Origin: Bathymodiolus brooksi
Taxonomy: Eukaryota; Mollusca; Bivalvia; Mytilida; Modiolidae
Reading direction: 5' to 3'
Length of the DNA: 64,000 bases
Assembly: GCA_963680875.1 (NCBI GenBank)
Contig: OY804588.1
Coordinates: 91,878,233 to 91,942,232 of the forward strand
The notes under the pieces were generated by a model. The model saw only the letters and a program-made list of their open reading frames with translations. It ran no database searches and was not told where the DNA came from. Positions 1 through 64,000 of the stretch are shown here, in pieces. Numbering within the stretch: position 1 is the first letter of the stretch; each line of letters begins with the position of its first letter. The translations under genes were made by a program, and so were the position numbers.

Positions 1-740
1 ACTCCAATTGGGACTGTAAGGCGACTCTCTAAATGCCTCAATACTCCAAAAGGAGCTATAAGTTGAGTTGCTGTCTGTATCACATGATATATCATCATTT
101 AATAAATCTTCAACTGGGAGCATAGAATTCGCCATGCTTTCCTCAGGAAGAGTCGTTGAAAACGGCAACAATTTATATTATGACGTCACGGTATGCCTTT
201 GGTCTACGTAGGCATTTGAGGGTTTCATACATGTATCCGACACATTGAAATTTAGCCTTTAGTACTTTAAAAAACAATCTGTTTTAGGTGAATTTATATT
301 CAAGTGTTTATCAAATCTTTAATTATTTCTCTGTGTTTTCATTTAATTAAAAGCATAGTAATTGCCAAGAAATAAACAGTTTAAATTTTAAATGACATGA
401 TCAGCTAAAAATAACGAAGTCGGGAAAGCAGTTGTAGTTTCTATTTGTGTAATCTGTAAATATACGTTAACTTTTTTTTGGATCGAAAGAAATCCGTAAA
501 CAAGGTATTTTTCATTAATCTTGTTCAATATAGAGGAGCTGTGTGGAAACGATGATAAGTGTTTTTTCAACAATTTTCCTACTTTGTCCAGACGTTTTTG
601 TGCATGGTTGTCCGCGTTGTAATTTTTGTCTTGGGTCTGGATCAAATGTCAGATTAATAAATAAAGCGATGAACGATGCCAAAAGTTCGATGCATGGTAC
701 ATCAAACACAGAATTCAGCAAACATATCCAGATTTTTCTC
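1..740. other. Upstream DNA with no recognised gene
   Basis: AT-rich sequence with only short fortuitous open frames. I see no exon-like conservation, RNA gene or clear repeat. The far right edge may belong to the 3' tail of the Penelope-like relic that follows. Confidence 0.5.
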
Positions 741-7016: not shown

Positions 7017-7257
7017 ATGGAAATACAATTATCGTTGTTATGGGTGAACATTTTGTCTATTTTCCGTGTTATTTATTCACAGAATGAAAACGTTCCAGCG
7101 GGAGCATCCTCGTTGACGTTTGTTTTTGACATTACAGGTTCTATGTATGATGATCTGGTACAGGTTATTGAGGGGGCAGAGAAGATCATGGACACAACTC
7201 TAGCTAGGAGGATCAACCCACTGTACAACTATATTCTGATTCCATTTCATGACCCAG
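7017..7257 (+). CDS. HMCN1: Hemicentin exon 1: signal peptide and start of VWA domain
   Basis: I chose the ATG at 7017 because it lies in a strong CACCATGG context and opens a signal peptide: MEIQ, a hydrophobic core [12 protein letters not shown], then a polar cleavage region near YSQN. An upstream in-frame TTG at 6993 is not a plausible start. The VWA domain begins at about residue 32, with MIDAS motif D38-I-T-G-S42. The exon ends in phase 1 after ...IPFHDP at donor GTGGGT (7258). Confidence 0.92.
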
Positions 7258-13200: not shown

Positions 13201-16200
13201 AAATGTTGGGATTAGATCTAAAGCTCAAGTAGTAATCGACATATTGTACAGTTGTCCCCCCTTATTATAAGGCCACTCTCACCACACTTCTCTGTCCACC
13301 TCTTATAAGGCCACTCTCACCAAAGGCCACACTTCTCTGTCCACCTCTTATAAGGCCACTCTCACCAAAGGCCACACTTCTCTGTCCACCTCTTATAAGG
13401 CCATCCTTTTTACAAGGCCTTTGAATGGGTGTTCTTATTAGAGAGGAGCTAGTGTACATTATTCATACCTTGTTTCTAAATTTATAATTTTCTTATTGAT
13501 CAGTCAATCAATCAATCAATCAGTGCTAATCACGTCTTGCCCTACTTCCAAATTAGAGAGAGAAGTGTCTTGTCTTTCAAAGGCTCACAGGGAGTTATAG
13601 AAGAGCAATTAATACTTCTAGGAAAAGTTAAATTGTAGCATCATTTCAAAACCTTTATATAGGTTACAAAGCTTTTTAGCAACAAAGTGGAACTCAACTA
13701 TTAGACTGAATAGCTGTCGGGCATACAGGCCAGCCACATCAATGTTTTGTTTCTGAGTTTCTGAAATCCAATTAAAAAAAAATCTGACTTGATCATTCTA
13801 AGAGTTGTTCCCCTTGATTATGCAAAAAATGATGTTTTTTTTGGCATAATCTCAAGGTTTTGATATAATTTTTTTTTATATTTAGATGGATAGGTTTGAT
13901 TGTATATTCCTGACTTATTTATTTTCTGTCCCAAGTTGATGAAAATAAAATACAGTAGAACTTCGGAGGCTCGAACTCGAAGGGACTGTCAAAATGTGTT
14001 CGAGCTATCGGAAGTTCGAGCCACTGAGGTCCCGTAATTACAGAGAAAAAAAATGTGATTCTGACCCGGGACAGTTTCACTACGCTTTGATAACTAGTGC
14101 ACACTACCATGGACCTTTGTCGTAAAAATATTTAATCCTTTAGAAAGTTCTCAAAGACTACGACTTCTGAATACCTCTTTGGTATCTTCAAACGTTCCTT
14201 AGAAACGTTTTTTTCACTTTGTTCGCAATTTATTTTATATACAGGAAATATGAGGTCGGGTATTAACAGTTGGATCGATATCGGTATAATGCTTGAAAAT
14301 TCAGATATATATTTCTAATGGCCAATTTTCAGATTTTAGCCAATGATCATTTTCTTTTTTTTTATTTGAATTTGAAGCAATTATATTTGTTTCTTTGGTA
14401 TTATATATAGACATAAAAACTCAGGTTAATCGGAATTTCACTACTAGTACATTTCTATTTTTTGGGTATTTAGATTAACCTTGAGATCACGTTTGATATT
14501 ATTAAATTCCAGCAACTATAAAAATTAAAATAAACCACTCAATAATACTAATTCATGTAATAACAATTTTGGATATTGTTTTAATAAACTTTATTACGAT
14601 TGTAAACATTTGATTGTTTTAATTATTGTAAATTAAATTAGTATAGGCTCGGCTTGGTACAATCAGTGACATGTGTCTCGGGTTCAATAATCGTTCTTTA
14701 TTTCTCGTAATTAACCTTTTAATAATCAAGCCACAGCTGAATTTAATGACTAATTAACACAAATTATGACAAATTTATCCCTCTACCTGTAATCGTTAAG
14801 TAAACAATTATCTGTCAGTAATATGACATTTATCACAACTTGCGGTAAGCACATTCAACCGTAACATACCTCTGTCAATTAAATTGCAATGTTCAAGTTT
14901 GGCATGGTAAAACTCGTGATTTTATTATTGACAGGACCATTTATTGAGTTCGACTGTTCGAGGTATCGGTGTTCGAGCGAAAAGGGTTATTTTTACTTAG
15001 AAAAATAAAGAAAATTGACAGGACTTTCAAATCAGTTCGACCCATCTGAGTTTGAGGGACTGAAGTTTGACTGTATATAAAAATTGAGAGTAATCATTAA
15101 AAATTGTATTGTGTTTTAGGTTCTGGATTTTGTAAAATTAACTGTACAAGCACAGAAGGTAAACCTAATGTCAGTTAATTCTCCCAAGAAGTCTGTAAAT
15201 ACTTACACTATACCAGTGGATAATAAACTACAGGAATTTACTGTATCTGTCACTGGTAAAGCTCCTGAGATAAAACTGTGGGCTCCAGGTCAAGGTAAGA
15301 TAACTGTCACTGGTAAAGCTCTTGATATAAAACACAGGTACTTGTGGACAGGACCCTATGTTGCTCCCTTTTTTTTTTTTTTTTTTTTTTTTCTTTTTTT
15401 TGAAGATATAAGTTAGAAGGTAAGTCACTCTTCTTTGTTTACATTGAGGGACTTGTTGTGCATTCATCTTAAATTTAGTGAATAAAAAAGGTCTACCTGT
15501 CTGGAAATTGGCTTATTCCTTCTCTGTATATATTATTCTCCCTGAAAACACACATCAATATTTATTTGCAGCAGCTGACAACTCTCCATGGAACATTTTC
15601 CACTCGCAATTTGCGATTTTCAGACGACATTTTTGAAAACTAGAATTAAAGCTACGGAAGTGTGATATTAGCGACATCTGCTGGTCATTTCAAATATTGA
15701 CGATACGGTAAAACGCGAGAGTTCCGGGTAAAAAGTTCGGGAATTTTTTGGTGCAAAATTTAATTTTACCCGGAACTCTCGCCAATTTCCAGACAGGTAG
15801 GCCTTTTTTATTCACTAAATTTAAGATGAATGCACAACAAGTACCCCAATGTAAACAAAGAAGAGTGACTTACCTTCTAACTTATATCATGTCAGAAACC
15901 CTGCATGGATAGAAACTACTGTTTGATTGTATTTATTGTATATATGTCATACAGTGATACATAGAAAGTTGCAAAATGTTGTTTATATGAAAAAAAGTTG
16001 ATGTTCAACAAAAAAAAAAAAAAAAAAAAGGGGGGGGGGGGGCAACATCTTAAAAAAAAAAAAAAGGGAGCAACATAGGGTCCTGTCCACAAGTACCTGT
16101 GATATAAAACTGTGGGCTCCAGGTCAAGGTAAGATATCTGTCAGTGGTAAAGCTCCTGATATAAAACTGTGGGCTCCAGGACAAGGTAAGATATCTGTCC

Positions 16201-19200
16201 GTGGTAAAGCTCATGATATAAAACTGTGGGCTCCAGGTCAAGGTAAGATATCTGTCACTGGTAAAGCTCCTGATATAAAACTGGGCTCCAGGTCCAGGTA
16301 AGATATCTGTCAGTGGTAAAGCTCCTGAGATAAAACTATGGGCTCCAGGACAAGGTAAGATATCTGTCAGTGGTAAAGCTCCTGATATAAAACTGTGGAC
16401 TCCAGGACAAGGTAAGATATCTGTCAGTGGTAAAGCTCCTGATATAAAACTGTGGGCTCCAGGACAAGGTAAGATATCTGTCCGTGGTAAAGCTCATGAT
16501 ATAAAACTGTGGGCTCCAGGTCAAGGTAAGATATCTGTCAGTGGTAAAGCTCCTGATATAAAACTGGGCTCCAGGTCCAGGTAAGATATCTGTCAGTGGT
16601 AAAGCTCCTGATATAAAACTGTGGGCTCCAGGACAAGGTAAGATATCTGTCAGTTGTAAAGCTCCTGATATAAAACTGTGGGCTCCAGGACAAGGTAAGA
16701 TATCTGTCAGTGGTAAAGCTCCTGATATAAAACTGTGGGCTCCAGGTCAAGGTAAGATATCTGTCAGTGGTAAAGCTCCTGAGATAAAACTATGGGCTCG
16801 AGGACAAGGTAAGATATCTGTCAGTGGTAAAGCTCCTGATATAAAACTGTGGACTCCAGGACAAGGTAAGATATCTGTCAGTGGTAAAGCTCCTGATATA
16901 AAACTGTGGGCTCCAGGACAAGGTAAGATATCTGTCAGTGGTAAAGCTCATGATATAAAACTGTGGGCTCCAGGTCAAGGTAAGATATCTGTCACTGGTA
17001 AAGCTCCTGATATAAAACTGGGCTCCAGGTCCAGGTAAGATATCTGTCAGTGGTAAAGCTCCTGATATAAAACTGTGGGCTCCAGGACAAGGTAAGATAT
17101 CTGTCAGTTGTAAAGCTCCTGATATAAAACTGTGGGCTCCAGGACAAGGTAAGATATCTGTCAGTGGTAAAGCTCCTGATATAAAACTGTGGGCTCCAGG
17201 TCAAGGTAAGATATCTGTCAGTGGTAAAGCTCCTGAGATAAAACTATGGGCTCCAGGACAAGGTAAGATATCTGTCAGTGGTAAAGCTCCTGATATAAAA
17301 CTGTGGTCTCCAGGACAAGGTAAGATATCTGTCAGTGGTAAAGCTCCTGATATAAAACTGTGGGCTCCAGGTCCAGGTAAGATATCTGTCAGTGGTAAAG
17401 CTCATGATATAAAACTTTGGGCTCCAGGTCAAGGTAAGATATTTGTCAGTGGTAAAGCTCCTGATATAAAACTGTGGGCTCCAGTTCAAGGTAAGATATC
17501 TGTCAGTGGTAAAACTCCTGATATAAAACTAGGCTCTAGGTCTAGGTAAGATATCTGTCAGTGCTAAAGCTCCTGATATAAAACTATGGTCTCCAGGACA
17601 AGGTAAGATATCTGTCCGTGGTAAAGCTCCTGATATAAAACTGTGGGCTCCAGGACAAGGTAAGATATCTGTCAGTGGTAAAGCTCCTGAGATAAAACTG
17701 TGGGCTCCAGGACAAGGTAAGATATCTGTCAGTGGTAAAGCTCCTGAGATAAAACTGTGGGCTCCAGGACAAGGTAAGATATCTGTCAGTGGTAAAGCTC
17801 CTGATATAAAACTGTGGGCTCCAGGTCAAGGTAAGATATCTATCAGTGGTAAAGCTCCTGAGATAAAACTTTGGGTTCCAGGTCAAGGTAAGATATCTGT
17901 CAGTGGTAAAGCTCCTGAGATAAAACTGTGGGCTCCAGGACAAGGTAAGATATCTGTCAGTGGTAAAGCTCCTGATATAAAACTGTGGGCTCCAGGACAA
18001 GGTAAGATATCTGTCAGTGGTAAAGCTCCTGATATAAAACTGTGGTCTCCAGGACAAGGTAAGATATCTGTCAGTGGTAAAGCTCCTGAGATAAAACTAT
18101 GGGCTCCAGGACAAGGTAAGATATCTGTCAGTGGTAAAGCTCCTGATATAAAACTGTGGTCTCCAGGACAAGGTAAGATATCTGTCAGTGGTAAAGCTCC
18201 TGATATAAAACTGTGGGCTCCAGGTCAAGGTAAGATATCTGTCAGTGGTAAAGCTCATGATATAAAACTTTGGGCTCCAGGTCAAGGTAAGATATTTGTC
18301 AGTGGTAAAGCTCCTGAGATAAAACTGTGGGCTCCAGTTCAAGGTAAGATATCTGTCAGTGGTAAAACTCCTGATATAAAACTAGGCTCTAGGTCTAGGT
18401 AAGATATCTGTCAGTGCTAAAGCTCCTGATATAAAACTATGGTCTCCAGGACAAGGTAAGATATCTGTCAGTGGTAAAGCTCCTGATATAAAACTGTGGG
18501 CTCCAGGACAAGGTAAGATATCTGTCAGTGGTAAAGCTCCTGAGATAAAACTGTGGGCTCCAGGACAAGTAAGATATCTGTCAGTGGTAAAGCTCCTGAG
18601 ATAAAACTGTGGGCTCCAGAACAAGGTAAGATATCTGTCAGTGGTAAAGCTCCTGATATAAAACTGTGGGCTCCAGGTCAAGGTAAGATATCTATCAGTG
18701 GTAAAGCTCCTGAGATAAAACTGTGGGTTCCAGGTCAAGGTAAAATATCTGTCAGTGGTAAAGCTCCTGAGATAAAACTGTGGGCTCCAGGACAAGGTAA
18801 GATATCTGTCAGTGGTAAAGCTCCTGATATAAAACTGTGGGCTCCAGGACAAGGTAAGATATCTGTCAGTGGTAAAGCTCCTGATATAAAACTGTGGTCT
18901 CCAGGACAAGGTAAGATATCTGTCAGTGGTAAAGCTCCTGATATAAAACTGTGGTCTCCAGGACAAGGTAAGATATCTGTCAGTGGTAAAGCTCCCAATA
19001 TAAAACTGTGGGCTCCAGGACAAGGTAAGATATCTGTCAGTGGTAAAGCTCCTGAGATAAAACTGTGGGCTCCAGGACAAGGTAAGATATCTGTCAGTGG
19101 TAAAGCTCCTGATATAAAACTGTGGGCTCCAGGTCAAGGTAAGATATCTGTCAGTGGTAAAGCTCATGATATAAAACTGTGGGCTCCAGGTCAAGGTAAG

Positions 19201-22200
19201 ATATATATAGAATGTATAAAACTTTGGGCTCCAGGTCAAGGTAAGATATATATAGAATGTATAAAACGTTGGGCTCCAGGTCAAGGTAAGATATATATAG
19301 AATGTATAAAACTTTGGGCTCCAGGTCAAGGTAAGATATATATAGAATGTATAAAACTTTAGGCTCCAGGTCAAGGTAAGATATATATAGAATGTATAAA
19401 ACTTTGGGCTCCAGGTCAAGGTAAGATATATATAGAATGTATAAAACTTTGGGCTCCAGGTCAAGGTAAGATATATATAGAATGTATAAAACTTTGGGCT
19501 CCAGGTCAAGGTAAGATATATATAGAATGTATAAAACTTTGGGCTCCAGGTCAAGGTAAGATATATATAAAATGTATAAAACTTTGGGCTCCAGGTCAAG
19601 GTAAGATATATATAGAATGTATAAAACTTTGGGCTCCAGGTCAAGGTAAGATATATATATAGAATGTATAAAACTTTGGGCTCCAGGTCAAGGTAAGATA
19701 TATATAGAATGTATAAAACTTTGGGCTCCAGGTCAAGGTAAGATATATATAGAATGTATAAAACTTTGGGCTCCAGGTCAAGGTAAGATATATATAGAAT
19801 GTATAAAACTTTGGGCTCCAGGTCAAGGTAAGATATATATAGAATGTATAAAACTTTGGGCTCCAGGTCAAGGTAAGATATATATAAAATGTATAAAACT
19901 TTGGGCTCCAGGTCAAGGTAAGATATATATAGAATGTATAAAACTTTGGGCTCCAGGTCAAGGTAAGATATATATAGAATGTATAAAACTTTGGGCTCCA
20001 GGTCAAGGTAAGATATATATAGAATGTATAAAACTTTGGGCTCCAGGTCAAGGTAAGATATATATAGAATGTATAAAACTTTGGGCTCCAGGTCAAGGTA
20101 AGATATATATAGAATGTATAAAACTTTGGGCTCCAGGTCAAGGTAAGATATATATAAAATGTATAAAACTTTGGGCTCCAGGTCAAGGTAAGATATATAT
20201 AGAATGTATAAAACTTTGGGCTCCAGGTCAAGGTAAGATATATATAGAATGTATAAAACTTTGGGCTCCAGGTCAAGGTAAGATATATATAGAATGTATA
20301 AAACTTTGGGCTCCAGGTCAAGGTAAGATATATATAGAATGTATAAAACTTTGGGCTCCAGGTCAAGGTAAGATATATATAGAATGTATAAAACTTTGGG
20401 CTCCAGGTCAAGGTAAGATATATATAGAATGTATAAAACTTTGGGCTCCAGGTCAAGGTAAGATATATATAGAATGTATAAAACTTTGGGCTCCAGGTCA
20501 AGGTAAGATATATATAGAGTGTATAAAACTTTGGGCTCCAGGTCAAGGTAAGATATATATAAAATGTATAAAACTTTGGGCTCCAGGTCAAGGTAAGATA
20601 TATATAGAATGTATAAAACTTTGGGCTCCAGGTCAAGGTAAGATATATATAGAATGTATAAAACTTTGGGCTCCAGGTCAAGGTAAGATATATATAAAAT
20701 GTATAAAACTTTGGGCTCTATTGATGTCGCCTTCATGAAGCCAATTTTTACAAGAAATAATCTGCTTCTGCTTCTAATTCCAGAAATCGTGTCAGTGGTG
20801 TAATGGTTTGCGTGCTCGCCTCGAGTGCGGTAGATCGTGGGGTCGAGCCCCGGCCCTGTCCGTACAACCCAAAAACTATAAAATTGGTATTTGTTGCTTC
20901 TTCGCTAAGCACGCTGCATTCAAGAGTAAGAACAGAGACTAGTTGGCTCAGAATCAGAATAATATGTCCGACAGTTGTTTCAGTGAGTTAGCACTATAAA
21001 TCCAACTCAGCATGTTGGTCTAGAACAAAGAGGACATCATCATCATCTCATTGAAAATCAACTTGCTATCACCATGATATAGCTGAAAAATTGCTGATTT
21101 GTCGTTAAACAATAATAACTCGCTCACTCTAGATCTCATCTACCTTCTTTTAGAAAAATATACATATTTAGAAAGTGACGGCAGTTATGAAGGACAAGAC
21201 AGATATCACTAGTATATTGCACAGAGTCGGATTCTTGTGATAATGTGTGTTGAAACTGTCGTCATAATGTGTTTGACATTACACTGAACAATAATTTTCA
21301 TGCTTACATTACAATGCAAAAATGTCCAAATTACCGATAAACTTATATAGAATACTCCTAAAAGAATACAGAGGGTGGTATTATTAAATATGAAAAATGT
21401 ATTGCCATTGCTGATGAAAAAAAAGGGAATCATTGATTGCTGAACTGAAACAGTTACATTTTTTACGATTTTGTAATTTTCTGATTGACTTTAAATTTTA
21501 GACGGAAAAAATATCTGTGGCTTGTGGTTAACATCACATGATGTTTCTCCTTCTTGACAACATAACCCATAATCAATAACCCATAATCAATAACTGATAA
21601 CCTATAATCAATAACTGATAACCTATAATCAATAACTGATAACCTATAACCATTAACTGATAACCAAGATAAATAATGGTTGAATGTTTTTATTATACCT
21701 ATCCAGAAAACGAGTTCACAGAAATTGATGGTCTTACGAATTTACTGGATTTGAAAAAGGTTAAAATTCAGAATGTAAGAGAACCTCGACTAGGAAATTG
21801 GAAGTTACAAGTCTCCAGTAACAGCTCACACACTGTCAGAGTTCATGGACTTAGTTCTGCCAACTTCTTCAATGGTTTTTCACGTAGACTGGTCACAGAC
21901 ATGTCGTCAACAACGTTAAGACCTCTTGCTGGTAAGAGTATACAGTTTATCAATAGTGTTACATATCTTTCGCAGTGTTAATCCACTCTATGGTACAATT
22001 ATACATTACATATATTGCCACATTTCGATGACCGTGAGTGAGTGAAGGTTAATCCACTCTTTGTTAATATGTGGTTGATCCACGATGCCACATTTTCTTG
22101 ACAATGTTAATCCATTCTTTGGTAATATTATGTGGTTGATCCACGATGCCACATTTTCTTGACAATGTTAATCCATTCTTTGGTAATAGTATGTGGTTGA

Positions 22201-25200
22201 TCCATGATGCCACATTTTCTTGACAATGTTAATCCATTCTTTGGTAATATTATGTGGTTGATCCACGATGCCACATTTTCTTGACAATGTTAATCCACTC
22301 TTTGGTAATAATTTTTTGGTTGATCCACGATGCCACATTTTCTTGACAATGTTAATCCATTCTTTGGTAATATTATGTGGTTGATCCACGATGCCACATT
22401 TTCTTGACAATGTTAATCCATTCTTTGGTAATATTATGTGGTTGATCCACGATGCCACATTTTCTTGACAATGTTAATCCATTCTTTGGTAATATTATGT
22501 GGTTGATCCACGATGCCACATTTTCTTGACAATGTTAATCCATTCTTTGGTAATATTATGTGGTTGATCCACGATGCCACATTTTCTTGACAATGTTAAT
22601 CCATTCTTTGGTAATATTATGTGGTTGATCCACGATGCCACATTTTCTTGACAATGTTAATCCATTCTTTGGTAATATTATGTGGTTGATCCACGATGCC
22701 ACATTTTCTTGACAATGTTAATCCATTCTTTGGTAATATTATGTGGTTGATCCACGATGCCACATTTTCTTGACAATGTTAATCCATTCTTTGGTAATAG
22801 TATGTGGTTGATCCACGATGCCACATTTTCTTGACAATGTTAATCCATTTTTTGGTAATATTATGTGGTTGATCCACGATGCCACATTTTCTTGACAATG
22901 TTAATCCATTCTTTGGTAATATTATGTGGTTGATCCATGATGCCACATTTTCTTGACAATGTTAATCCATTCTTTGGTAATATTATGTGGTTGATCCACG
23001 ATGCCACATTTTCTTGACAATGTTAATCCATTCTTTGGTAATATTATGTGGTTGATCCACGATGCCACATTTTCTTGACAATGTTAATCCATTCTTTGGT
23101 AATATTATGTGGTTGATCCACGATGCCACATTTTGTTGACAAGATTAATCCACTCTTTGGTAATATTATGTGGTTGATCCACGATGCCACATTTTCTTGA
23201 CAATGTTAATCCATTCTTTGGTAATATTATGTGGTTGATCCACGATGCCACATTTTCTTGACAATGTTAATCCATTCTTTGGTAATATTATGTGGTTGAT
23301 CCACGATGCCACATTTTCTTGACAATGTTAATCCATTTTTTTGGTAATATTATGTGGTTGATCCACGATGCCACATTTTCTTGACAATGTTAATCCATTC
23401 TTTGGTAATATTATGTGGTTGATCCACGATGCCACATTTTCTTGACAATGTTAATCCATTCTTTGGTAATATTATGTGGTTGATCCACAATGCCACATTT
23501 TCTTGACAATGTTAATCCATTCTTTGGTAATATTATGTGGTTGATCCACGATGCCACATTTTCTTGACAATGTTAATCAACTTGTTGGTAAGTTGATCCA
23601 CAATGTAACAGTTGATTGACTCATTGCTTTATTCCACATTCAGTAATGTTTCTTGGCAACCAGGCTTGGAGGAGAAAACCAGTATTACAGTATCAATTTA
23701 TTTGTGACAGGTCAGTGGTTTTTTCCGGGTCCTACGGTTTCCTTCACCAATAAAACTGATTGTCACGATATAACTGAAATATTGTTGAAAATGGCGTTAA
23801 GCACCATAAAACAAACAAAACAAACAACAAGCAACTGTACGAAAAAGAAAACTTCCTGAATTCCTGAATGTTTTGGTAGGGGCAGTTGGGTAAAAGCAGT
23901 TTTGATGTGTTGGTATTCTTACAGCAAACTCAAAAAAAATCATGGATAGCCTAATCCAGTGTATATCTCATGTATTGAGCTTGATATATATTTGTTTTTA
24001 TTGTAGGTGTTGAATCCTACGGTTTGGTGAATACCAGCGACATTGATTTACCGGCACAGCTATATGAGATGGAGTTATTAGATCTACAAGGAAACGTCTT
24101 AGCAAGATATCCACTCGTCAAAGATAAACTCAGAGATAACATTTACAGTATATCCAAATTTAAACCTCCGAAATCTTTCTTTTATTTAAAGGTGCGTTTT
24201 GTGTGGAATCTAAACATCATTGTTTCCAAATCGGGTTAGGGTTATGGTGTTTAACACCACCTTCAACAATATTTCAGTTATATCGTGGCAGCCAGTTTAA
24301 TTGGTGGAAGAGACTGGATTACCTAATGAAAACCACCAACCTGCTGCAAGTAACTGACAAATTTTATCACATAAATTTGTATCAAGTACACCTTGCCATG
24401 AGTGGGATTCGAACTCACAACTTTAGTGATGATAGACACGATGAAGACCATGACAAGTGAGTGACTATGTACTATCCTATGAAAATAATGATTGTGAGAC
24501 TATGAAAATGTTATTAAACTGCATTGCATGTTACAAGCTATCTGATTGGCAGAAAAAGATGATAACAATATTTATCATATCATTATATATTCTTGACATA
24601 AGGTCACTCACACATGACCTATAATGGGATTTCCTCATATCTCCCACGCCACAACATATTAGTTTTAAGGGGAACACGTGAGAGATCAGGACTGGGTTGT
24701 ACAAACATTAGTTTTAAGGGGAACACATGAGAGATCAGGACTGGGTTGTACAAACCTCAATTAAATTTAAAGGTCAATTAAGACTTAATTGACACTTAAA
24801 TCTACTTGGAATGTACATGAAATTAATCTACACTTCTTAAGGTTTAAATGAGACTTAAATGTAATTGAGGTTTGTGCAATCAGTCCTGAATTTTATTAGA
24901 TTGTGAAATATCATGCTATTAAGCAGCAATTGTTGTAATATATTCCATTGACAGGTAACAGGTATTGATGACGAAGGAAACTCTCTAGAGAGGTTGACAG
25001 CCACTGCTATTAGCTCTCGTAGTCCCACCAAACCACTTGTATATATGCCGGATATAACACGAGGATATTATGATACCACAACCTTCTTGACTTGTAGAGT
25101 TATCAGTGAAATTCCTTTTACGGTTCAGTGGTCCAGAAAACGAAAAGCCTTAGGATATGAACAACATTATAGGTAAAGTATATAGATATTACTTAATTAG

Positions 25201-51800: not shown

Positions 51801-54800
51801 AGGAGAATACAGGTGTACAGCTTCTAATATAGCTGGTAATGTGGAGAAAACAGTGTCATTGTTTGTACAAGGTGAGTTATCTCCCCTGGAAATATTTAGT
51901 TCTGATTGGACAGACACAGGAGAATACAGGTGTACAGCTTCTAATATAGCTGGTAATGTGGAGAAAACAGTGTCATTGTTTGTACAAGGTGAGTTATCTC
52001 CCCTGGAAATATTTAGTTCTGATCGGACAGACACAGGAGAATACAGATGTACAGCTTCTAATATAGCTGGTAATGTGGAGAAAACAGTGTCATTGTTTGT
52101 ACAAGGTGAGTTATCTCCCCTGGAAATATTTAGTTCTGATCGGACAGACACAGGAGAATACAGGTGTACAGCTTCTAATATAGCTGGTAATGTGGAGAAA
52201 ACAGTGTCATTGTTTGTACAAGGTGAGTTATCTCCCCTGGAAATATTTAGTTCTGATCAGACAGACACAGGAGAATACAGGTGTACAGCTTCTAATATAG
52301 CTGGTAATGTGGAGAAAACAGTGTCATTGCTTGTACAAGGTGAGTAATCACCCCTGGAAATATTTAGTTCTGATCGGACAGACACAGGAGAATACAGGTG
52401 TACAGCTTCTAATATAGCTGGTAATGTGGAGAAAACAGTGTCATTGTTTGTACAAGGTGAGTAATCACCCCTGGAAATATTTAGTTCTGATCAGACAGAC
52501 ACAGGAGAATACAGGTGTACAGCTTCTAATATAGCTGGTAATGTGGAGAAAACAGTGTCATTGTTTGTACAAGGTGAGTTATCTCCCCTGGAAATATTTA
52601 GTTCTGATTGGACAGACACAGGAGAATACAGGTGTACAGCTTCTAATATAGCTGGTAATGTGGAGAAAACAGTGTCATTGCTTGTACAAGGTGAGTAATC
52701 ACCCCTGGAAATATTTAGTTCTGATCAGACAGACACAGGAGAATACAGGTGTACAGCTTCTAATATAGCTGGTAATGTGGAGAAAACAGTGTCATTGCTT
52801 GTACAAGGTGAGTAATCTCCCCTGGAAATATTTAGTTCTGATCAGACAGACACAGGAGAATACAGGTGTACAACTTCTATTATAGCTGGTAATGTGGAGA
52901 AAACAGTGTCATTGTTTGTACAAGGTGATTTATCTCCCCTGGAAATATTTAGTTCTAATTGGACAGACACAGGAGAATACAGGTGTACAGCTTCTAATAT
53001 AGCTGGTAATGTGGAGAAAACAGTGTCATTGTTTGTACAAGGTGAGTTATCTCCCCTGGAAATATTTAGTTCTGATCAGACAGACACAGGAGAATACAGG
53101 TGTACAGCTTCTAATATAGCTGGTAATGTGGAGAAAACAGTGTCATTGCTTGTACAAGGTGAGTAATCACTCCTGGAAATATTTAGTTCTGATCGGACAG
53201 ACACAGGAGAATACAGGTGTACAGCTTCTAATATAGCTGGTAATGTGGAGAAAACAGTGTCATTGTTTGTACAAGGTGAGTAATCACCCCTGGAAATATT
53301 TAGTTCTGATCAGACAGACACAGGAGAATACAGGTGTACAGCTTCTAATATAGCTGGTAATGTGGAGAAAACAGTGTCATTGTTTGTACAAGGTGAGTTA
53401 TCTCCCCTGGAAATATTTAGTTCTGATTGGACAGACACAGGAGAATACAGGTGTACAGCTTCTAATATAGCTGGTAATGTGGAGAAAACAGTGTCATTGT
53501 TTGTACAAGGTGAGTTATCTCCCCTGGAAATATTTAGTTCTGATTGGACAGACACAGGAGAATACAGGTGTACAACTTCTAATATAGCTGGTAATGTGGA
53601 GAAAACAGTGTCATTGTTTGTACAAGGTGAGTTATCTCCCCTGGAAATATTTAGTTCTGATCAGACAGACACAGGAGAATACAGGTGTACAGCTTCTAAT
53701 ATAGCTGGTAATGTGGAGAAAACAGTGTCATTGCTTGTACAAGGTGAGTAATCACCCCTGGAAATATTTAGTTCTGATCGGACAGACACAGGAGAATACA
53801 GGTGTACAGCTTCTAATATAGCTGGTAATGTGGAGAAAACAGTGTCATTGTTTGTACAAGGTGAGTAATCACCCCTGGAAATATTTAGTTCTGATCAGAC
53901 AGACACAGGAGAATACAGGTGTACAGCTTCTAATATAGCTGGTAATGTGGAGAAAACAGTGTCATTGTTTGTACAAGGTGAGTTATCTCCCCTGGAAATA
54001 TTTAGTTCTGATTGGACAGACACAGGAGAATACAGGTGTACAGCTTCTAATATAGCTGGTAATGTGGAGAAAACAGTGTCATTGTTTGTACAAGGTGAGT
54101 TATCTCCCCTGGAAATATTTAGTTCTGATTGGACAGACACAGGAGAATACAGGTGTACAGCTTCTAATATAGCTGGTAATGTGGAGAAAACAGTGTCATT
54201 GTTTGTACAAGATGAGTTATCTCCCCTGGAAATATTTAGTTCTGATTGGACAGACACAGGAGAATACAGGTGTACAGCTTCTAATATAGCTGGTAATGTG
54301 GAGAAAACAGTGTCATTGTTTGTACAAGGTGAGTTATCTCCCCTGGAAATATTTAGTTCTGATCAGACAGACACAGGAGAATACAGATGTACAGCTTCTA
54401 ATATAGCTGGTAATGTGGAGAAAACAGTGTCATTGTTTGTACAAGGTGAGTTATCTCCCCTGGAAATATTTAGTTCTGATTGGACAGACACAGGAGAATA
54501 CAGGTGTACAGCTTCTAATATAGCTGGTAATGTGGAGAAAACAGTGTCATTGTTTGTACAAGGTGAGTTATCTCCCCTGAAAATATTTAGTTCTGATCAG
54601 ACAGACACAGGAGAATACAGGTGTACAGCTTCTAATATAGCTGGTAATGTGGAGAAAACAGTGTCATTGCTTGTACAAGGTGAGTAATCACCCCTGGAAA
54701 TATTTAGTTCTGATCGGACAGACACAGGAGAATACAGGTGTACAGCTTCTAATAGAGCTGGTAATGTGGAGAAAACAGTGTCATTGTTTGCACAAGGTGA

Positions 54801-57800
54801 GTAATCACCCCTGGAAATATTTAGTTCTGATCAGACAGACACAGGAGAATACAGGTGTACAGCTTCTAATATAGCTGGTAATGTGGAGAAAACAGTGTCA
54901 TTGTTTGTACAAGGTGAGTTATCTCCCCTGGAAATATTTAGTTCTGATTGGACAGACACAGGAGAATACAGGTGTACAGCTTCTAATATAGCTGGTAATG
55001 TGGAGAAAACAGTGTCATTGTTTGTACAAGGTGAGTTATCTCCCCTGGAAATATTTAGTTCTGATCGGACAGACACAGGAGAATACAGGTGTACAGCTTC
55101 TAATATAGCTGGTAATGTGGAGAAAACAGTGTCATTGCTTGTACAAGGTGAGTAATCTCCCCTGGAAATATTTAGTTCTGATCGGACAGACACAGGAGAA
55201 TACAGGTGTACAACTTCTATTATTGCTGGTAATGTGGAGAAAACAGTGTCATTGTTTATACAAGGTGAGTTATCTCCCCTGGAAATATTTAGTTCTGATC
55301 AGACAGACACAGGAGAATACAGGTGTACAGCTTCTAATATAGCTGGTAATATGGAGAAAACAGTGTCATTGTTTGTACAAGGTGAGTTATCTCCCCTGGA
55401 AATATTTAGTTCTGATTGGACAGACACAGGAGAATACAGGTGTACAGCTTCTAATATAGCTGGTAATGTGGAGAAAACAGTGTCATTGTTTGTACAAGGT
55501 GAGTTATCTCCCCTGGAAATATTTAGTTCTGATTGGACAGACACAGGAGAATACAGGTGTACAGCTTCTAATATAGCTGGTAATGTGGAGAAAACAGTGT
55601 CATTGTTTGTACAAGATGAGTTATCTCCCCTGGAAATATTTAGTTCTGATTGGACAGACACAGGAGAATACAGGTGTACAGCTTCTAATATAGCTGGTAA
55701 TGTGGAGAAAACAGTGTCATTGTTTGTACAAGGTGAGTTATCTCCCCTGGAAATATTTAGTTCTGATCGGACAGACACAGGAGAATACAGATGTACAGCT
55801 TCTAATATAGCTGGTAATGTGGAGAAAACAGTGTCATTGTTTGTACAAGGTGAGTTATCTCCCCTGGAAATATTTAGTTCTGATTGGACAGACACAGGAG
55901 AATACAGGTGTACAGCTTCTAATATAGCTGGTAATGTGGAGAAAACAGTGTCATTGTTTGTACAAGGTGAGTTATCTCCCCTGGAAATATTTAGTTCTGA
56001 TTGGACAGACACAGGAGAATACAGGTGTACAGCTTCTAATATAGCTGGTAATGTGGAGAAAACAGTGTCATTGTTTGTACAAGGTGAGTAATCACCCCTG
56101 GAAATATTTAGTTCTGATCGGACAGACACAGGAGAATACAGGTGTACAGCTTCTAATAGAGCTGGTAATGTGGAGAAAACAGTGTCATTGTTTGCACAAG
56201 GTGAGTTATCTCCCCTGGAAATATTTAGTTCTGATTGGACAGACACAGGAGAATACAGGTGTACAGCTTCTAATATAGCTGGTAATGTGGAGAAAACAGT
56301 GTCATTGTTTGTACAAGGTGAGTTATCTCCCCTGAAAATATTTAGTTCTGATCAGACAGACACAGGAGAATACAGGTGTACAGCTTCTAATATAGCTGGT
56401 AATGTGGAGAAAACAGTGTCATTGCTTGTACAAGGTGAGTAATCACCCCTGGAAATATTTAGTTCTGATCGGACAGACACAGGAGAATACAGGTGTACAG
56501 CTTCTAATAGAGCTGGTAATGTGGAGAAAACAGTGTCATTGTTTGCACAAGGTGAGTAATCACCCCTGGAAATATTTAGTTCTGATCAGACAGACACAGG
56601 AGAATACAGGTGTACAGCTTCTAATATAGCTGGTAATGTGGAGAAAACAGTGTCATTGTTTGTACAAGGTGAGTTATCTCCCCTGGAAATATTTAGTTCT
56701 GATCAGACAGACACAGGAGAATACAGGTGTACAGCTTCTAATATAGCTGGTAATGTGGAGAAAACAGTGTCATTGTTTGTACAAGGTGAGTAATCACCCC
56801 TGGAAATATTTAGTTCTGATCAGACAGACACAGGAGAATACAGGTGTACAGCTTCTAATATAGCTGGTAATGTGGAGAAAACAGTGTCATTGCTTGTACA
56901 AGGTGAGTAATCACTCCTGGAAATATTTAGTTCTGATCGGACAGACACAGGAGAATACAGGTGTACAGCTTCTAATATAGCTGGTAATGTGGAGAAAACA
57001 GTGTCATTGTTTGTACAAGGTGAGTAATCACCCCTGGAAATATTTAGTTCTGATCAGACAGACACAGGAGAATACAGGTGTACAGCTTCTAATATAGCTG
57101 GTAATGTGGAGAAAACAGTGTCATTGTTTGTACAAGGTGAGTTATCTCCCCTGGAAATATTTAGTTCTGATTGGACAGACACGGGAGAATACAGGTGTAC
57201 AGCTTCTAATATAGCTGGTAATGTGGAGAAAACAGTGTCATTGTTTGTACAAGGTGAGTTATCTCCCCTGGAAATATTTAGTTCTGATCGGACAGACACA
57301 GGAGAATACAGGTGTACAACTTCCATTATAGCTGGTAATGTGGAGAAAACAGTGTCATTGTTTGTACAAGGTGAGTTATCTCCCCTGGAAATATTTAGTT
57401 CTGATCGGACAGACACAGGAGAATACAGATGTACAGCTTCTAATATAGCTGGTAATGTGGAGAAAACAGTGTCATTGTTTGTACAAGGTGAGTTATCTCC
57501 CCTGGAAATATTTAGTTCTGATTGGACAGACACAGGAGAATACAGGTGTACAGCTTCTAATATAGCTGGTAATGTGGAGAAAACAGTGTCATTGTTTGTA
57601 CAAGGTGAGTTATCTCCCCTGGAAATATTTAGTTCTGATCGGACAGACACAGGAGAATACAGGTGTACAGCTTCTAATATAGCTGGTAATGTGGAGAAAA
57701 CAGTGTCATTGCTTGTACAAGGTGAGTAATCACCCCTGGAAATATTTAGTTCTGATCGGACAGACACAGGAGAATACAGGTGTACAGCTTCTAATAGAGC

Positions 57801-60800
57801 TGGTAATGTGGAGAAAACAGTGTCATTGTTTGTACAAGGTGAGTTATCACCCCTGGAAATATTTAGTTCTGATCAGACAGACACAGGAGAATACAGGTGT
57901 ACAGCTTCTAATATAGCTGGTAATGTGGAGAAAACAGTGTAATTGTTTGTACAAGGTGAGTTATCTCCCCTGGAAATATTTAGTTCTGATTGGACAGACA
58001 CAGGAGAATACAGGTGTACAGCTTCTAATATAGCTGGTAATGTGGAGAAAACAGTGTCATTGTTTGTACAAGGTGAGTTATCTCCCCTGGAAATATTTAG
58101 TTCTGATTGGACAGACACAGGAGAATACAGGTGTACAGCTTCTAATATAGCTGGTAATGTGGAGAAAACAGTGTCATTGTTTGTACAAGGTGAGTTATCT
58201 CCCCTGGAAATATTTAGTTCTGATTGGACAGACACAGGAGAATACAGGTGTACAGCTTCTAATATAGCTGGTAATGTGGAGAAAACAGTGTCATTGTTTG
58301 TACAAGATGAGTTATCTCCCCTGGAAATATTTAGTTCTGATTGGACAGACACAGGAGAATACAGGTGTACAGCTTCTAATATAGCTGGTAATGTGGAGAA
58401 AACAGTGTCATTGTTTGTACAAGGTGAGTTATCTCCCCTGGAAATATTTAGTTCTGATCAGACAGACACAGGAGAATACAGATGTACAGCTTCTAATATA
58501 GCTGGTAATGTGGAGAAAACAGTGTCATTGTTTGTACAAGGTGAGTTATCTCCCCTGGAAATATTTAGTTCTGATTGGACAGACACAGGAGAATACAGGT
58601 GTACAGCTTCTAATATAGCTGGTAATGTGGAGAAAACAGTGTCATTGTTTGTACAAGGTGAGTTATCTCCCCTGAAAATATTTAGTTCTGATCAGACAGA
58701 CACAGGAGAATACAGGTGTTTAGCTTCTAATATAGCTGGTAATGTGGAGAAAACAGTGTCATTGCTTGTACAAGGTGAGTAATCACCCCTGGAAATATTT
58801 AGTTCTGATCGGACAGACACAGGAGAATACAGGTGTACAGCTTCTAATAGAGCTGGTAATGTGGAGAAAACAGTGTCATTGTTTGCACAAGGTGAGTAAT
58901 CACCCCTGGAAATATTTAGTTCTGATCAGACAGACACAGGAGAATACAGGTGTACAGCTTCTAATATAGCTGGTAATGTGGAGAAAACAGTGTCATTGTT
59001 TGTACAAGGTGAGTTATCTCCCCTGGAAATATTTAGTTCTGATTGGACAGACACAGGAGAATACAGGTGTACAGCTTCTAATATAGCTGGTAATGTGGAG
59101 AAAACAGTGTCATTGTTTGTACAAGGTGAGTTATCTCCCCTGGAAATATTTAGTTCTGATCGGACAGACACAGGAGAATACAGGTGTACAGCTTCTAATA
59201 TAGCTGGTAATGTGGAGAAAACAGTGTCATTGCTTGTACAAGGTGAGTAATCTCCCCTGGAAATATTTAGTTCTGATCGGACAGACACAGGAGAATACAG
59301 GTGTACAACTTCTATTATTGCTGGTAATGTGGAGAAAACAGTGTCATTGTTTATACAAGGTGAGTTATCTCCCCTGGAAATATTTAGTTCTGATCAGACA
59401 GACACAGGAGAATACAGGTGTACAGCTTCTAATATAGCTGGTAATATGGAGAAAACAGTGTCATTGTTTGTACAAGGTGAGTTATCTCCCCTGGAAATAT
59501 TTAGTTCTGATTGGACAGACACAGGAGAATACAGGTGTACAGCTTCTAATATAGCTGGTAATGTGGAGAAAACAGTGTCATTGTTTGTACAAGGTGAGTT
59601 ATCTCCCCTGGAAATATTTAGTTCTGATTGGACAGACACAGGAGAATACAGGTGTACAGCTTCTAATATAGCTGGTAATGTGGAGAAAACAGTGTCATTG
59701 TTTGTACAAGATGAGTTATCTCCCCTGGAAATATTTAGTTCTGATTGGACAGACACAGGAGAATACAGGTGTACAGCTTCTAATATAGCTGGTAATGTGG
59801 AGAAAACAGTGTCATTGTTTGTACAAGGTGAGTTATCTCCCCTGGAAATATTTAGTTCTGATCGGACAGACACAGGAGAATACAGATGTACAGCTTCTAA
59901 TATAGCTGGTAATGTGGAGAAAACAGTGTCATTGTTTGTACAAGGTGAGTTATCTCCCCTGGAAATATTTAGTTCTGATTGGACAGACACAGGAGAATAC
60001 AGGTGTACAGCTTCTAATATAGCTGGTAATGTGGAGAAAACAGTGTCATTGTTTGTACAAGGTGAGTTATCTCCCCTGGAAATATTTAGTTCTGATTGGA
60101 CAGACACAGGAGAATACAGGTGTACAGCTTCTAATATAGCTGGTAATGTGGAGAAAACAGTGTCATTGTTTGTACAAGGTGAGTAATCACCCCTGGAAAT
60201 ATTTAGTTCTGATCGGACAGACACAGGAGAATACAGGTGTACAGCTTCTAATAGAGCTGGTAATGTGGAGAAAACAGTGTCATTGTTTGCACAAGGTGAG
60301 TTATCTCCCCTGGAAATATTTAGTTCTGATTGGACAGACACAGGAGAATACAGGTGTACAGCTTCTAATATAGCTGGTAATGTGGAGAAAACAGTGTCAT
60401 TGTTTGTACAAGGTGAGTTATCTCCCCTGAAAATATTTAGTTCTGATCAGACAGACACAGGAGAATACAGGTGTACAGCTTCTAATATAGCTGGTAATGT
60501 GGAGAAAACAGTGTCATTGCTTGTACAAGGTGAGTAATCACCCCTGGAAATATTTAGTTCTGATCGGACAGACACAGGAGAATACAGGTGTACAGCTTCT
60601 AATAGAGCTGGTAATGTGGAGAAAACAGTGTCATTGTTTGCACAAGGTGAGTAATCACCCCTGGAAATATTTAGTTCTGATCAGACAGACACAGGAGAAT
60701 ACAGGTGTACAGCTTCTAATATAGCTGGTAATGTGGAGAAAACAGTGTCATTGTTTGTACAAGGTGAGTTATCTCCCCTGGAAATATTTAGTTCTGATCA

Positions 60801-63800
60801 GACAGACACAGGAGAATACAGGTGTACAGCTTCTAATATAGCTGGTAATGTGGAGAAAACAGTGTCATTGTTTGTACAAGGTGAGTAATCACCCCTGGAA
60901 ATATTTAGTTCTGATCAGACAGACACAGGAGAATACAGGTGTACAGCTTCTAATATAGCTGGTAATGTGGAGAAAACAGTGTCATTGCTTGTACAAGGTG
61001 AGTAATCACTCCTGGAAATATTTAGTTCTGATCGGACAGACACAGGAGAATACAGGTGTACAGCTTCTAATATAGCTGGTAATGTGGAGAAAACAGTGTC
61101 ATTGTTTGTACAAGGTGAGTAATCACCCCTGGAAATATTTAGTTCTGATCAGACAGACACAGGAGAATACAGGTGTACAGCTTCTAATATAGCTGGTAAT
61201 GTGGAGAAAACAGTGTCATTGTTTGTACAAGGTGAGTTATCTCCCCTGGAAATATTTAGTTCTGATTGGACAGACACGGGAGAATACAGGTGTACAGCTT
61301 CTAATATAGCTGGTAATGTGGAGAAAACAGTGTCATTGTTTGTACAAGGTGAGTTATCTCCCCTGGAAATATTTAGTTCTGATCGGACAGACACAGGAGA
61401 ATACAGGTGTACAACTTCCATTATAGCTGGTAATGTGGAGAAAACAGTGTCATTGTTTGTACAAGGTGAGTTATCTCCCCTGGAAATATTTAGTTCTGAT
61501 CGGACAGACACAGGAGAATACAGATGTACAGCTTCTAATATAGCTGGTAATGTGGAGAAAACAGTGTCATTGTTTGTACAAGGTGAGTTATCTCCCCTGG
61601 AAATATTTAGTTCTGATTGGACAGACACAGGAGAATACAGGTGTACAGCTTCTAATATAGCTGGTAATGTGGAGAAAACAGTGTCATTGTTTGTACAAGG
61701 TGAGTTATCTCCCCTGGAAATATTTAGTTCTGATCGGACAGACACAGGAGAATACAGGTGTACAGCTTCTAATATAGCTGGTAATGTGGAGAAAACAGTG
61801 TCATTGCTTGTACAAGGTGAGTAATCACCCCTGGAAATATTTAGTTCTGATCGGACAGACACAGGAGAATACAGGTGTACAGCTTCTAATAGAGCTGGTA
61901 ATGTGGAGAAAACAGTGTCATTGTTTGTACAAGGTGAGTTATCACCCCTGGAAATATTTAGTTCTGATCAGACAGACACAGGAGAATACAGGTGTACAGC
62001 TTCTAATATAGCTGGTAATGTGGAGAAAACAGTGTAATTGTTTGTACAAGGTGAGTTATCTCCCCTGGAAATATTTAGTTCTGATTGGACAGACACAGGA
62101 GAATACAGGTGTACAGCTTCTAATATAGCTGGTAATGTGGAGAAAACAGTGTCATTGTTTGTACAAGGTGAGTTATCTCCCCTGGAAATATTTAGTTCTG
62201 ATCAGACAGACACAGGAGAATACAGGTGTACAGCTTCTAATATAGCTGGTAATGTGGAGAAAACAGTGTCATTGCTTGTACAAGGTGAGTAATCACCCCT
62301 GGAAATATTTAGTTCTGATCGGACAGACACAGGAGAATACAGGTGTACAGCTTCTAATATAGCTGGTAATGTGGAGAAAACAGTGTCATTGTTTGTACAA
62401 GGTGAGTTATCTCCCCTGGAAATATTTAGTTCTGATCGGACAGACACAGGAGAATACAGGTGTACAGCTTCTAATATAGCTGGTAATGTGGAGAAAACAG
62501 TGTCATTGTTTGTACAAGGTGAGTTATCTCCCCTAGAAATATTTAGTTCTGATTGGACAGACACAGGAGAATACAGGTGTACAGCTTCTAATATAGCTGG
62601 TAATGTGGAGAAAACAGTGTCATTGTTTGTACAAGGTGAGTTATCTCCCCTGGAAATATTTAGTTCTGATCAGACAGACACAGGAGAATACAGGTGTACA
62701 GCTTCTAATATAGCTGGTAATGTGGAGAAAACAGTGTCATTGCTTGTACAAGGTGAGTAATCACCCCTGGAAATATTTAGTTCTGATCAGACAGACACAG
62801 GAGAATACAGGTGTACAGCTTCTAATATAGCTGGTAATGTGGAGAAAACAGTGTCATTGCTTGTACAAGGTGAGTAATCTCCCCTGGAAATATTTAGTTC
62901 TGATCAGACAGACACAGGAGAATACAGGTGTACAACTTCTATTATAGCTGGTAATGTGGAGAAAACAGTGTCATTGTTTGTACAAGGTGAGTTATCTCCC
63001 CTGGAAATATTTAGTTCTAATTGGACAGACACAGGAGAATACAGGTGTACAGCTTCTAATATAGCTGGTAATGTGGAGAAAACAGTGTCATTGTTTGTAC
63101 AAGGTGAGTTATCTCCCCTGGAAATATTTAGTTCTGATCAGACAGACACAGGAGAATACAGGTGTACAGCTTCTAATATAGCTGGTAATGTGGAGAAAAC
63201 AGTGTCATTGCTTGTACAAGGTGAGTAATCACTCCTGGAAATATTTAGTTCTGATCGGACAGAAACAGGAGAATACAGGTGTACAGCTTCTAATATAGCT
63301 GGTAATGTGGAGAAAACAGTGTCATTGTTTGTACAAGGTGAGTAATCACCCCTGGAAATATTTAGTTCTGATCAGACAGACACAGGAGAATACAGGTGTA
63401 CAGCTTCTAATATAGCTGGTAATGTGGAGAAAACAGTGTCATTGTTTGTACAAGGTGAGTTATCTCCCCTGGAAATATTTAGTTCTGATTGGACAGACAC
63501 AGGAGAATACAGGTGTACAGCTTCTAATATAGCTGGTAATGTGGAGAAAACAGTGTCATTGTTTGTACAAGGTGAGTTATCTCCCCTGGAAATATTTAGT
63601 TCTGATTGGACAGACACAGGAGAATACAGGTGTACAACTTCTAATATAGCTGGTAATGTGGAGAAAACAGTGTCATTGTTTGTACAAGGTGAGTTATCTC
63701 CCCTGGAAATATTTAGTTCTGATTGGACAGACACAGGAGAATACAGGTGTACAGCTTCTAATATAGCTGGTAATGTGGAGAAAACAGTGTCATTGTTTGT

Positions 63801-64000
63801 ACAAGGTGAGTAATCACCCCTGGAAATATTTAGTTCTGATCGGACAGACACAGGAGAATACAGGTGTACAGCTTCTAATATAGCTGATAATGTGGAGAAA
63901 ACAGTGTCATTGTTTGTACAAGGTGAGTAATCACCCCTGGAAATATTTAGTTCTGATCAGACAGACACAGGAGAATACAGGTGTACAGCTTCTAATATAG
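48834..64000. repeat. 117-bp megasatellite made of exon 17 end plus its donor, about 130 copies, open at window end
   Basis: The monomer has a GTGAGTTATCTCCCC head, then ends as exon 17 from CTGGAAATATTTAGTTCTGA through GGAGAATACAGGTGTACAGC to CATTGTTTGTACAAG. The period is 117 except one 4-nt deletion near 51280. Two head classes alternate: GAGTTATCT (open, Glu-Leu-Ser) and GAGTAATCA (in-frame TAA). A position after TTCTGAT varies as CAG, CGG or TGG (Gln, Arg, Trp). Other markers are AATAGAGCTGG, ACAACTTC, CAAGATGAG and GTGTAATTG. Each monomer encodes only the E-F-G strand half of an Ig domain with one Cys. Copies are about 97-99 percent alike by eye. Plus- and minus-strand frames of 75-315 codons here are consequences of the period. 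Confidence 0.97.
53950..62139. repeat. Higher-order duplication: two tandem 4095-bp blocks (35 monomers each)
   Basis: Marker variants recur at exactly +4095 (35 x 117): CAAGATGAG at 54207 and 58302, AATAGAGCTGG near 54751 and 58846, the Ile-for-Val FIQ copy near 55255 and 59350, the CTGAAAATA copy near 54577 and 58672, and GTGTAATTG near 57938 and 62033. Only scattered differences are seen (for example ACAG to TTAG near 58719). Outside about 53950-62160 the marker order diverges. Boundaries are good to about one monomer. Confidence 0.85.

Follow-up and report, generated by a model that had tools for sequence, protein, structure and literature searches.

Turri, Cuin and Porter reportedly described, in 1995, a human minisatellite that supplies multiple splice donors to an interferon-induced transcript, and we take the gene in question to be IFI6/6-16. 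This IFI6-type minisatellite is a precedent at a single locus for the arrangement described here, and the statement in the earlier note on this DNA that no named system of this kind was known was too strong. Tandem duplication has also been discussed as a route of intron gain, with ATP2A1 (Hellsten 2011) and a potato RdRp gene as examples, and genes with several copies of a 24-bp segment are described in fission yeast (both in the portion of PMC4974935 drawn on here). In mammalian cells, small tandem duplications can be formed by fill-in end joining, for which long homology is not needed (PMC8355091, in the portion used). Lastly, the CeRep25B minisatellites of C. elegans are intronic and lie near alternative exons (PMC4039745, again as far as the portion used goes).

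The window, by which we mean the whole 64,000-nucleotide stretch of Bathymodiolus brooksi DNA that was analysed, contains at 7017..48833 (+) exons 1-17 of a hemicentin-1 orthologue, with Pfam matches to VWA_4, GBD_Hemicentin and I-set. A VWA domain, a hemicentin GBD and many I-set domains follow one another in the order that marks membership of the hemicentins. When joined at their GT/AG sites, the 17 exons give an open frame of 1056 aa, and hemicentin-1 from a sea slug, Plakobranchus ocellatus, matches the product at 50% identity over 98%. Exons 18-43 were found in the 200 kb downstream of the window, at 77023-192850 (window numbering), where they are open over 1865 residues; the gene reaches at least exon 43, past the window end. 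Altogether, 17 exons in the window and 26 downstream were examined, with 43 donors and 42 acceptors. Rfam gave no matches in the window and none in 14 of the 20 downstream pieces.

Using TRF on the window and on the downstream-extended sequence, we find tandem copies across the 5' splice site at 11 of the 43 donors: those of exons 2, 4, 7, 8, 10, 15 and 17 in the window, and those of exons 32, 36, 37 and 41 downstream (Table 1). At each of these loci the end of the exon and its own donor form the first copy and the remaining copies are intronic, so that these are donor-spanning minisatellites, with a unit made of exon end plus GT donor and a first copy that is the exon's own junction. The open joined frame suggests that splicing uses the first copy's donor. 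All five arrays named in the earlier note (exons 4, 8, 10, 15 and 17) are present, as is the decayed exon 7 case that it proposed, and there are more cases than it claimed; it missed the exon 2 duplication, which lies before its start coordinate, and a probable exon 5 case. Its description of the arrays as starting at the first intronic base does not hold, as copy 1 begins within the exon and takes in the donor.

Table 1. Exons of the hemicentin gene in the window, and duplications and arrays at its donors (window numbering)
Feature	Positions	Strand	Unit (bp)	Copies	Exon part (nt)	Intron part (nt)	Description
E1	7017-7257	+					hemicentin exon
E2	10521-10750	+					hemicentin exon
E3	11978-12100	+					hemicentin exon
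E4	15120-15294	+					hemicentin exon
E5	21707-21931	+					hemicentin exon
E6	24007-24191	+					hemicentin exon
E7	24955-25172	+					hemicentin exon
E8	31682-31803	+					hemicentin exon
E9	33775-33958	+					hemicentin exon
E10	34452-34543	+					hemicentin exon
E11	39051-39317	+					hemicentin exon
E12	42814-42938	+					hemicentin exon
E13	44152-44296	+					hemicentin exon
E14	45168-45347	+					hemicentin exon
E15	46585-46680	+					hemicentin exon
E16	47649-47921	+					hemicentin exon
E17	48546-48833	+					hemicentin exon
E2 duplication	10744..10787	+	22	2	7	15	
E4 array	15244..20718	+	57		51	6	
Probable E5 case	21932..23578	+	61				array; unit like exon 5 donor junction
E7 duplication	25102..25326	+	114	2	71	43	decayed
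E8 array	31791..32261	+	35	13.5	13	22	
E10 array	34519..35946	+	34	42	25	9	
Possible E12 case	43102..43768	+	29				array; GAGGTAA core like exon 12 donor, ~160 nt downstream
E15 array	46646..47303	+	55	12	35	20	
E17 array	48730..64000 (window part)	+	117		104	13	
E32 array	downstream of window	+			50	20	
E36 array	downstream of window	+			87	46	
E37 array	downstream of window	+			29	16	
E41 array	downstream of window	+			61	17	

The eleven loci range from two copies at exons 2 and 7 to between about 12 and 217 copies at the other nine, and their units are 22-133 bp long, with 5 of the 11 periods being multiples of 3. Copy identity is graded: the two-copy relics show 84% (exon 7) and 86-90% (exon 2), and the large arrays 90-99%. 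From the gene start to the window end, donor-spanning loci occupy 23.5 of 57 kb, counting in an inserted element, bounded by inverted repeats that match at 44 of 45 bases, which interrupts the exon 4 array at ~15335-16099. From ~19170 onwards the same array continues with a derived 45-bp unit, in which the donor is still present. The exon 17 array has 130 copies in the window and 217 in total, running to 74117; 41 distinct monomers occur among the 130, and a higher-order repeat of 4095 bp (35 units) is superimposed on them. The exon 15 unit would read 29+26 if a weaker GTTTAT donor serves. As the earlier note held, the monomers are unrelated when taken as whole units. Short local matches are all that the eleven share (11-18 nt long in three cases); for 3 of the 55 pairs, no more than 2 of 200 shuffles were as good. 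A single dispersed satellite family with a common monomer is ruled out, since each unit matches the end of its own exon.

The smallest case, at exon 2, spans the donor at 10751, and its fit was equalled by 0 of 2687 control windows with the 22-nt unit and by 1 of 2692 with a 20-nt cut. The array after exon 5 probably derives from the exon 5 donor junction, judging from its resemblance to it: the share of control windows that fitted as well was 1 of 2788, 2 of 2791 and 3 of 2811 under three cuts. For exon 12, which the earlier note counted as a likely case, the resemblance stood with one cut (4 of 2800 control windows as good) and its strength did not with another (180 of 2804), and we treat donor derivation of this array as a weak, possible case. 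A candidate at exon 16 was not accepted, with 22 of 2793 controls equally good. Two further signals were dropped as non-arrays: the exon 20 donor passed the score cut (15.5) only by way of a paralogous Ig exon 1067 bp away, and the exon 25 acceptor owed its score of 16.0 to a paralogous Ig exon 1244 bp away. At the exon 19 acceptor, an ungapped match scores 16.0 at -103 bp, and inspection by eye shows a gapped resemblance closer to the exon; this is perhaps an old two-copy acceptor duplication, and was left out of the counts.

A comparison of donors with acceptors and random points, which the earlier note had put forward as a check, favours donors within hemicentin. In the window, a downstream copy across the junction occurs at 7 of 17 donors and an upstream copy at 0 of 16 acceptors, with 133 of 2267 intron points in first-copy position (binomial P=3e-5; one-sided Fisher P=0.005 for 7/17 donors and 0/16 acceptors). 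In the window, 44% of the intron points lie within repeated DNA. Placement was simulated by shrinking each array to one unit and dropping the units at random. Seven of the 29 repeat loci in the window span a donor against 0.95 expected (P=2e-5), in agreement with the earlier view that chance placement is implausible; among the 10 arrays with 10 or more copies, 5 do so where 0.25 would be expected. Over all 43 exons, with 55 repeat loci, 11 loci span donors where 1.66 are expected and 1 spans an acceptor where 1.62 are expected; for the 19 arrays of at least 10 copies the corresponding figures are 9 against 0.51 for donors and 1 against 0.50 for acceptors. Donors (11/43) and acceptors (1/42) differ (Fisher two-sided P=0.003), and continue to do so if exon 19 is counted too (acceptors 2/42, one-sided Fisher P=0.008). 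Acceptors in the hemicentin gene are near random expectation and donors are in excess. The phenomenon is not exclusive to donors, given the mirror-image array of 112 bp x ~100 that spans the exon 31 acceptor, the final copy of which is the true acceptor with 21 nt of exon.

The 26 downstream exons had not been seen by the author of the earlier note, and are an independent test of the donor claim. With loci placed across the whole 43-exon gene in the simulation, 4 of the 27 downstream loci span a donor against 0.69 expected (P=0.004), as do 4 of the 13 downstream arrays of at least 5 copies against 0.35 expected (P=0.00025). Compared with intron points in first-copy position (40 of 1847), the downstream donors are again enriched (4/26, P=0.002); set against the downstream acceptors alone (1/26), they show no significant difference (P=0.17). 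The excess thus recurs on exons that played no part in the original claim, and within hemicentin the data support separate events at donors that chance does not explain.

Outside hemicentin, a small sample of other genes shows no such excess. Kinesin motor exons of the same genome were searched for, and 30 of the 126 hits were examined; 28 donors and 22 acceptors in them scored above the cut. Their exon boundaries are motif predictions. A donor-spanning array occurs at 1 of the 28 kinesin donors against 1.25 expected (C14:83022275, a clear case of 65 bp x 2.4) and at 0 of the 22 acceptors, and 86 of 1920 intron points around kinesin exons are in first-copy position. The share of donors with arrays is higher in hemicentin than in kinesins (11/43 vs 1/28, one-sided P=0.014). 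Genome-wide, the pair CAGGTAAGT-15..45-CAGGTAAGT occurs 3960 times against 1671 for a backwards control, numbers that count copies and not loci. The single motif occurs 21630 times against 12363 for the control, so that pairs per single motif come to 0.183 against 0.135. In the first 73.2 Mb of C1 there are 10 pair loci against 3 for the control, with P=0.21 after single-motif frequency is allowed for. On these counts, a donor bias may or may not extend beyond hemicentin.

The reading we prefer is that duplications across donors have been recurrent and silent in the hemicentin gene and have then grown into minisatellites, together with a donor-anchored bias in that gene. Short tandem duplications (22-133 bp) would arise repeatedly across its 5' splice sites; as long as the first donor is spliced, a duplication across it would be silent and would not be removed; and slippage and unequal exchange could then expand it into a minisatellite. 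Growth of this sort is suggested by indirect signs, namely the homogenised copies, the 45-bp derivative in the exon 4 array and the 4095-bp repeat in that of exon 17. Tolerance is equal deep in introns, and cannot alone account for the donor excess. Because there are about 7x more arrays at donors than tolerance predicts (17x for those with at least 10 copies), we infer a donor-anchored bias, which would act on where duplications start, or survive, in the hemicentin gene. We hold this reading with moderate confidence, at about even chances, because there is no excess at the kinesin donors and no correlate of the arrays emerged: hemicentin donors with and without them do not differ significantly in strength, exon length or GC skew. 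Donors that carry arrays are neither weaker nor stronger (P=0.91), and GC skew, a crude proxy for R-loops, is no different at them (P=0.85).

The ends of the units bear on what the bias might be. On the intron side they fall at +6 to +22 in 9 of the 11 units, the +22 limit having been set after data inspection, and at +43 and +46 in the remaining two; on the exon side they are scattered from -7 to -104. Added together, the intron parts come to 227 nt, where random straddling would give 380 (P=0.01, or 0.014 with the kinesin case included). Modestly, this clustering favours the mechanism acting at junctions that the earlier note proposed. As a conjecture, unit ends between +6 and +22 could mark places where, during transcription, DNA broke or the template was switched just past the 5' splice site. 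Together with the donor-acceptor contrast, the clustering makes us lean towards duplications starting close to donors rather than surviving longer there. Since units were extended maximally leftward, the right end alone is informative on microhomology. The match beyond the last full copy is 0, 0, 0, 2 and 3 nt in five of the eight readable arrays and 8, 14 and 16 nt in the others (exons 8, 32 and 37); exon 7 could not be resolved, exon 36 was dropped as its array continues past the copy found, and exon 4 was left out. The matches of 0-3 nt agree with fill-in end joining of the kind that PMC8355091 describes, whereas those of 8-16 nt point to slippage or to an incomplete copy. On these end matches, the joins may have been blunt or may have come about by slippage between short repeats.

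Carried further, the preferred reading would make the transcribed 5' splice sites of some genes hotspots of tandem duplication. A germ-line event tied to the donor would repeatedly copy the exon end and donor, splicing at the first donor would hide the copies from selection, and introns would ratchet up from their donor end to tens of kb. The cause of such a hotspot could be polymerase pausing, U1 binding, or the edge of an R-loop or a nick located 6-22 nt inside the intron. We offer this extension tentatively, and doubt rather than expect that it will prove right.

The rival that survives best needs no special donor chemistry. Duplications may start anywhere, and a copy that lies in an exon cannot be lost and re-seeds its array, whereas purely intronic arrays are deleted or split by mobile elements. 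Coding constraint does preserve the exonic first copies, and an insertion interrupts at least the exon 4 array. The same anchoring would, however, predict the same excess at acceptors, where arrays are no more frequent than expected by chance, unless acceptor duplications are harmful; nor does it predict the clustering of unit ends at +6 to +22 or the absence of an excess at kinesin donors. It is a possible explanation, but one that we think doubtful. The next rival is that the genome is simply rich in minisatellites and that a striking gene was chosen. The large share of window intron points in repeated DNA speaks for this, as do the rate at which even the control 9-mer forms tandem pairs genome-wide and the lack of an excess in kinesins; but the three tests on the 26 exons that the author of the earlier note had not seen all give low P values, and we regard ordinary richness combined with choice of gene as unlikely.

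The idea that selection keeps the copies, whether as spare donors, which the earlier note raised, or for the sake of regulated alternative splicing, is not supported. In its favour are the periods that are multiples of 3 and the GT kept in 317 of the 321 copies examined in 8 window units. Yet 4 of 130 exon 17 copies have lost the G of GT, and across those 8 units, which include the probable exon 5 and possible exon 12 arrays, the donor 9-mers are about as variable as other windows of 9 nt, with 12 variant types where 14.6 are expected (P=0.35); the power of this test is limited because copies are homogenised. In the exon 17 unit the donor 9-mer has 7 variant types against 3.85 expected. Within the window, the exon 17 copies do not look like coding sequence, with 112 in-frame stops in 5056 codons, and for a translated piece of that array 11 database proteins were returned, none with >60% identity beyond 16% of its length, leaving the translation with no close full-length match. 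Donor strength, as noted, is no different either, and we consider selection for spare donors quite improbable. That reads were collapsed or duplicated at the junctions in assembly is hardly credible, given copies that differ by variants, the 45-bp derivative and higher-order repeat, the element inserted in the exon 4 array, and the position of the window in a 96-Mb contig.

How, then, do these loci compare with the systems described above? As in IFI6, the hemicentin repeats carry several splice donors. The IFI6 minisatellite is, however, one locus with a short unit, whereas hemicentin has eleven arrays with units of 22-133 bp and up to 217 copies, in which the inner donors are putative. Intron gain by duplication is similar in that a segment with a splice signal is duplicated and is tolerated since splicing removes the extra copy, but it makes a new intron, whereas in hemicentin an existing intron is lengthened from the donor side and the acceptor lies elsewhere (PMC4974935, in the portion drawn on). 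The AGGT model, in which the duplicate supplies both donor and acceptor, does not describe these loci, as the acceptors are at the next exons, outside the arrays. Fill-in end joining resembles our case in giving short duplications, under about 100 bp, but it concerns induced breaks in mammalian cells, and the portion of PMC8355091 used describes no link to splice sites. CeRep25B likewise places minisatellites in introns next to regulated exons, but as a family found at many places, for which the portion of PMC4039745 used describes no derivation from the adjoining exon. Among the matches listed in a search of the open-licence literature by title or abstract start, recurrent donor-spanning arrays in one gene were not found. 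The principle of tolerance and the single-locus case were already known; what is new here is the recurrence, with eleven separate donor-spanning arrays in one gene. Such arrays point to a way in which introns could lengthen from their donor side while the protein is left unharmed, and eleven duplications of graded age, each with its ancestral unit and ends known, form a natural series for testing donor bias in duplication.

The exon 4 array of the hemicentin gene is older than an insertion that it carries, an element with long inverted-repeat ends. Other repeats lie within the same gene, including a 173-bp tandem element that occurs three times and is perhaps part of a mobile element, and two arrays in intron 7 with almost identical units, to which no donor was matched. 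The intron 22 unit holds an acceptor-like TTTACAG together with a donor-like AAGGTGGG. Beyond exon 43, a 24-bp array comprises at least about 2765 copies (>66 kb), a lower bound, as the array runs to the end of the fetched stretch.

Repeat features in the hemicentin gene and at two kinesin loci of the same genome (ext., window coordinates carried on downstream)
Feature	Coordinates	Description
Element inserted in exon 4 array	window 15335-16099	inverted-repeat ends, 44/45 bases matching
173-bp tandem element	window 12352-12696, 40564-40908; ext. 131708-132052	two copies each site
Intron 7 arrays	window 25823-26088, 29359-30224	31-bp unit (TAAGTATCGTGATATATATTGGATCATGACC)
Intron 22 array	ext. 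87298-123888	37-bp unit, 994 copies
Exon 31 acceptor-spanning array	ext. 137517-148671 (L008-L009, downstream hemicentin)	112 bp x about 100 copies, 11 kb
Array 3' of exon 43	ext. 197162 to >=263767	24-bp unit
L048 kinesin exon, donor-spanning array	C14:83022275	65 bp x 2.4
L044 array	L044 2869-3057	65 bp x 3, close to kinesin hit

Among 28 kinesin donors examined, the array at L048 was the sole donor-spanning case. The L044 unit contains an acceptor-like TTATTTTTCAGGCC. In hemicentin, the unit of the exon 31 array joins about 91 nt of intron end to 21 nt of exon start, and this acceptor array is the mirror image of the gene's donor arrays.
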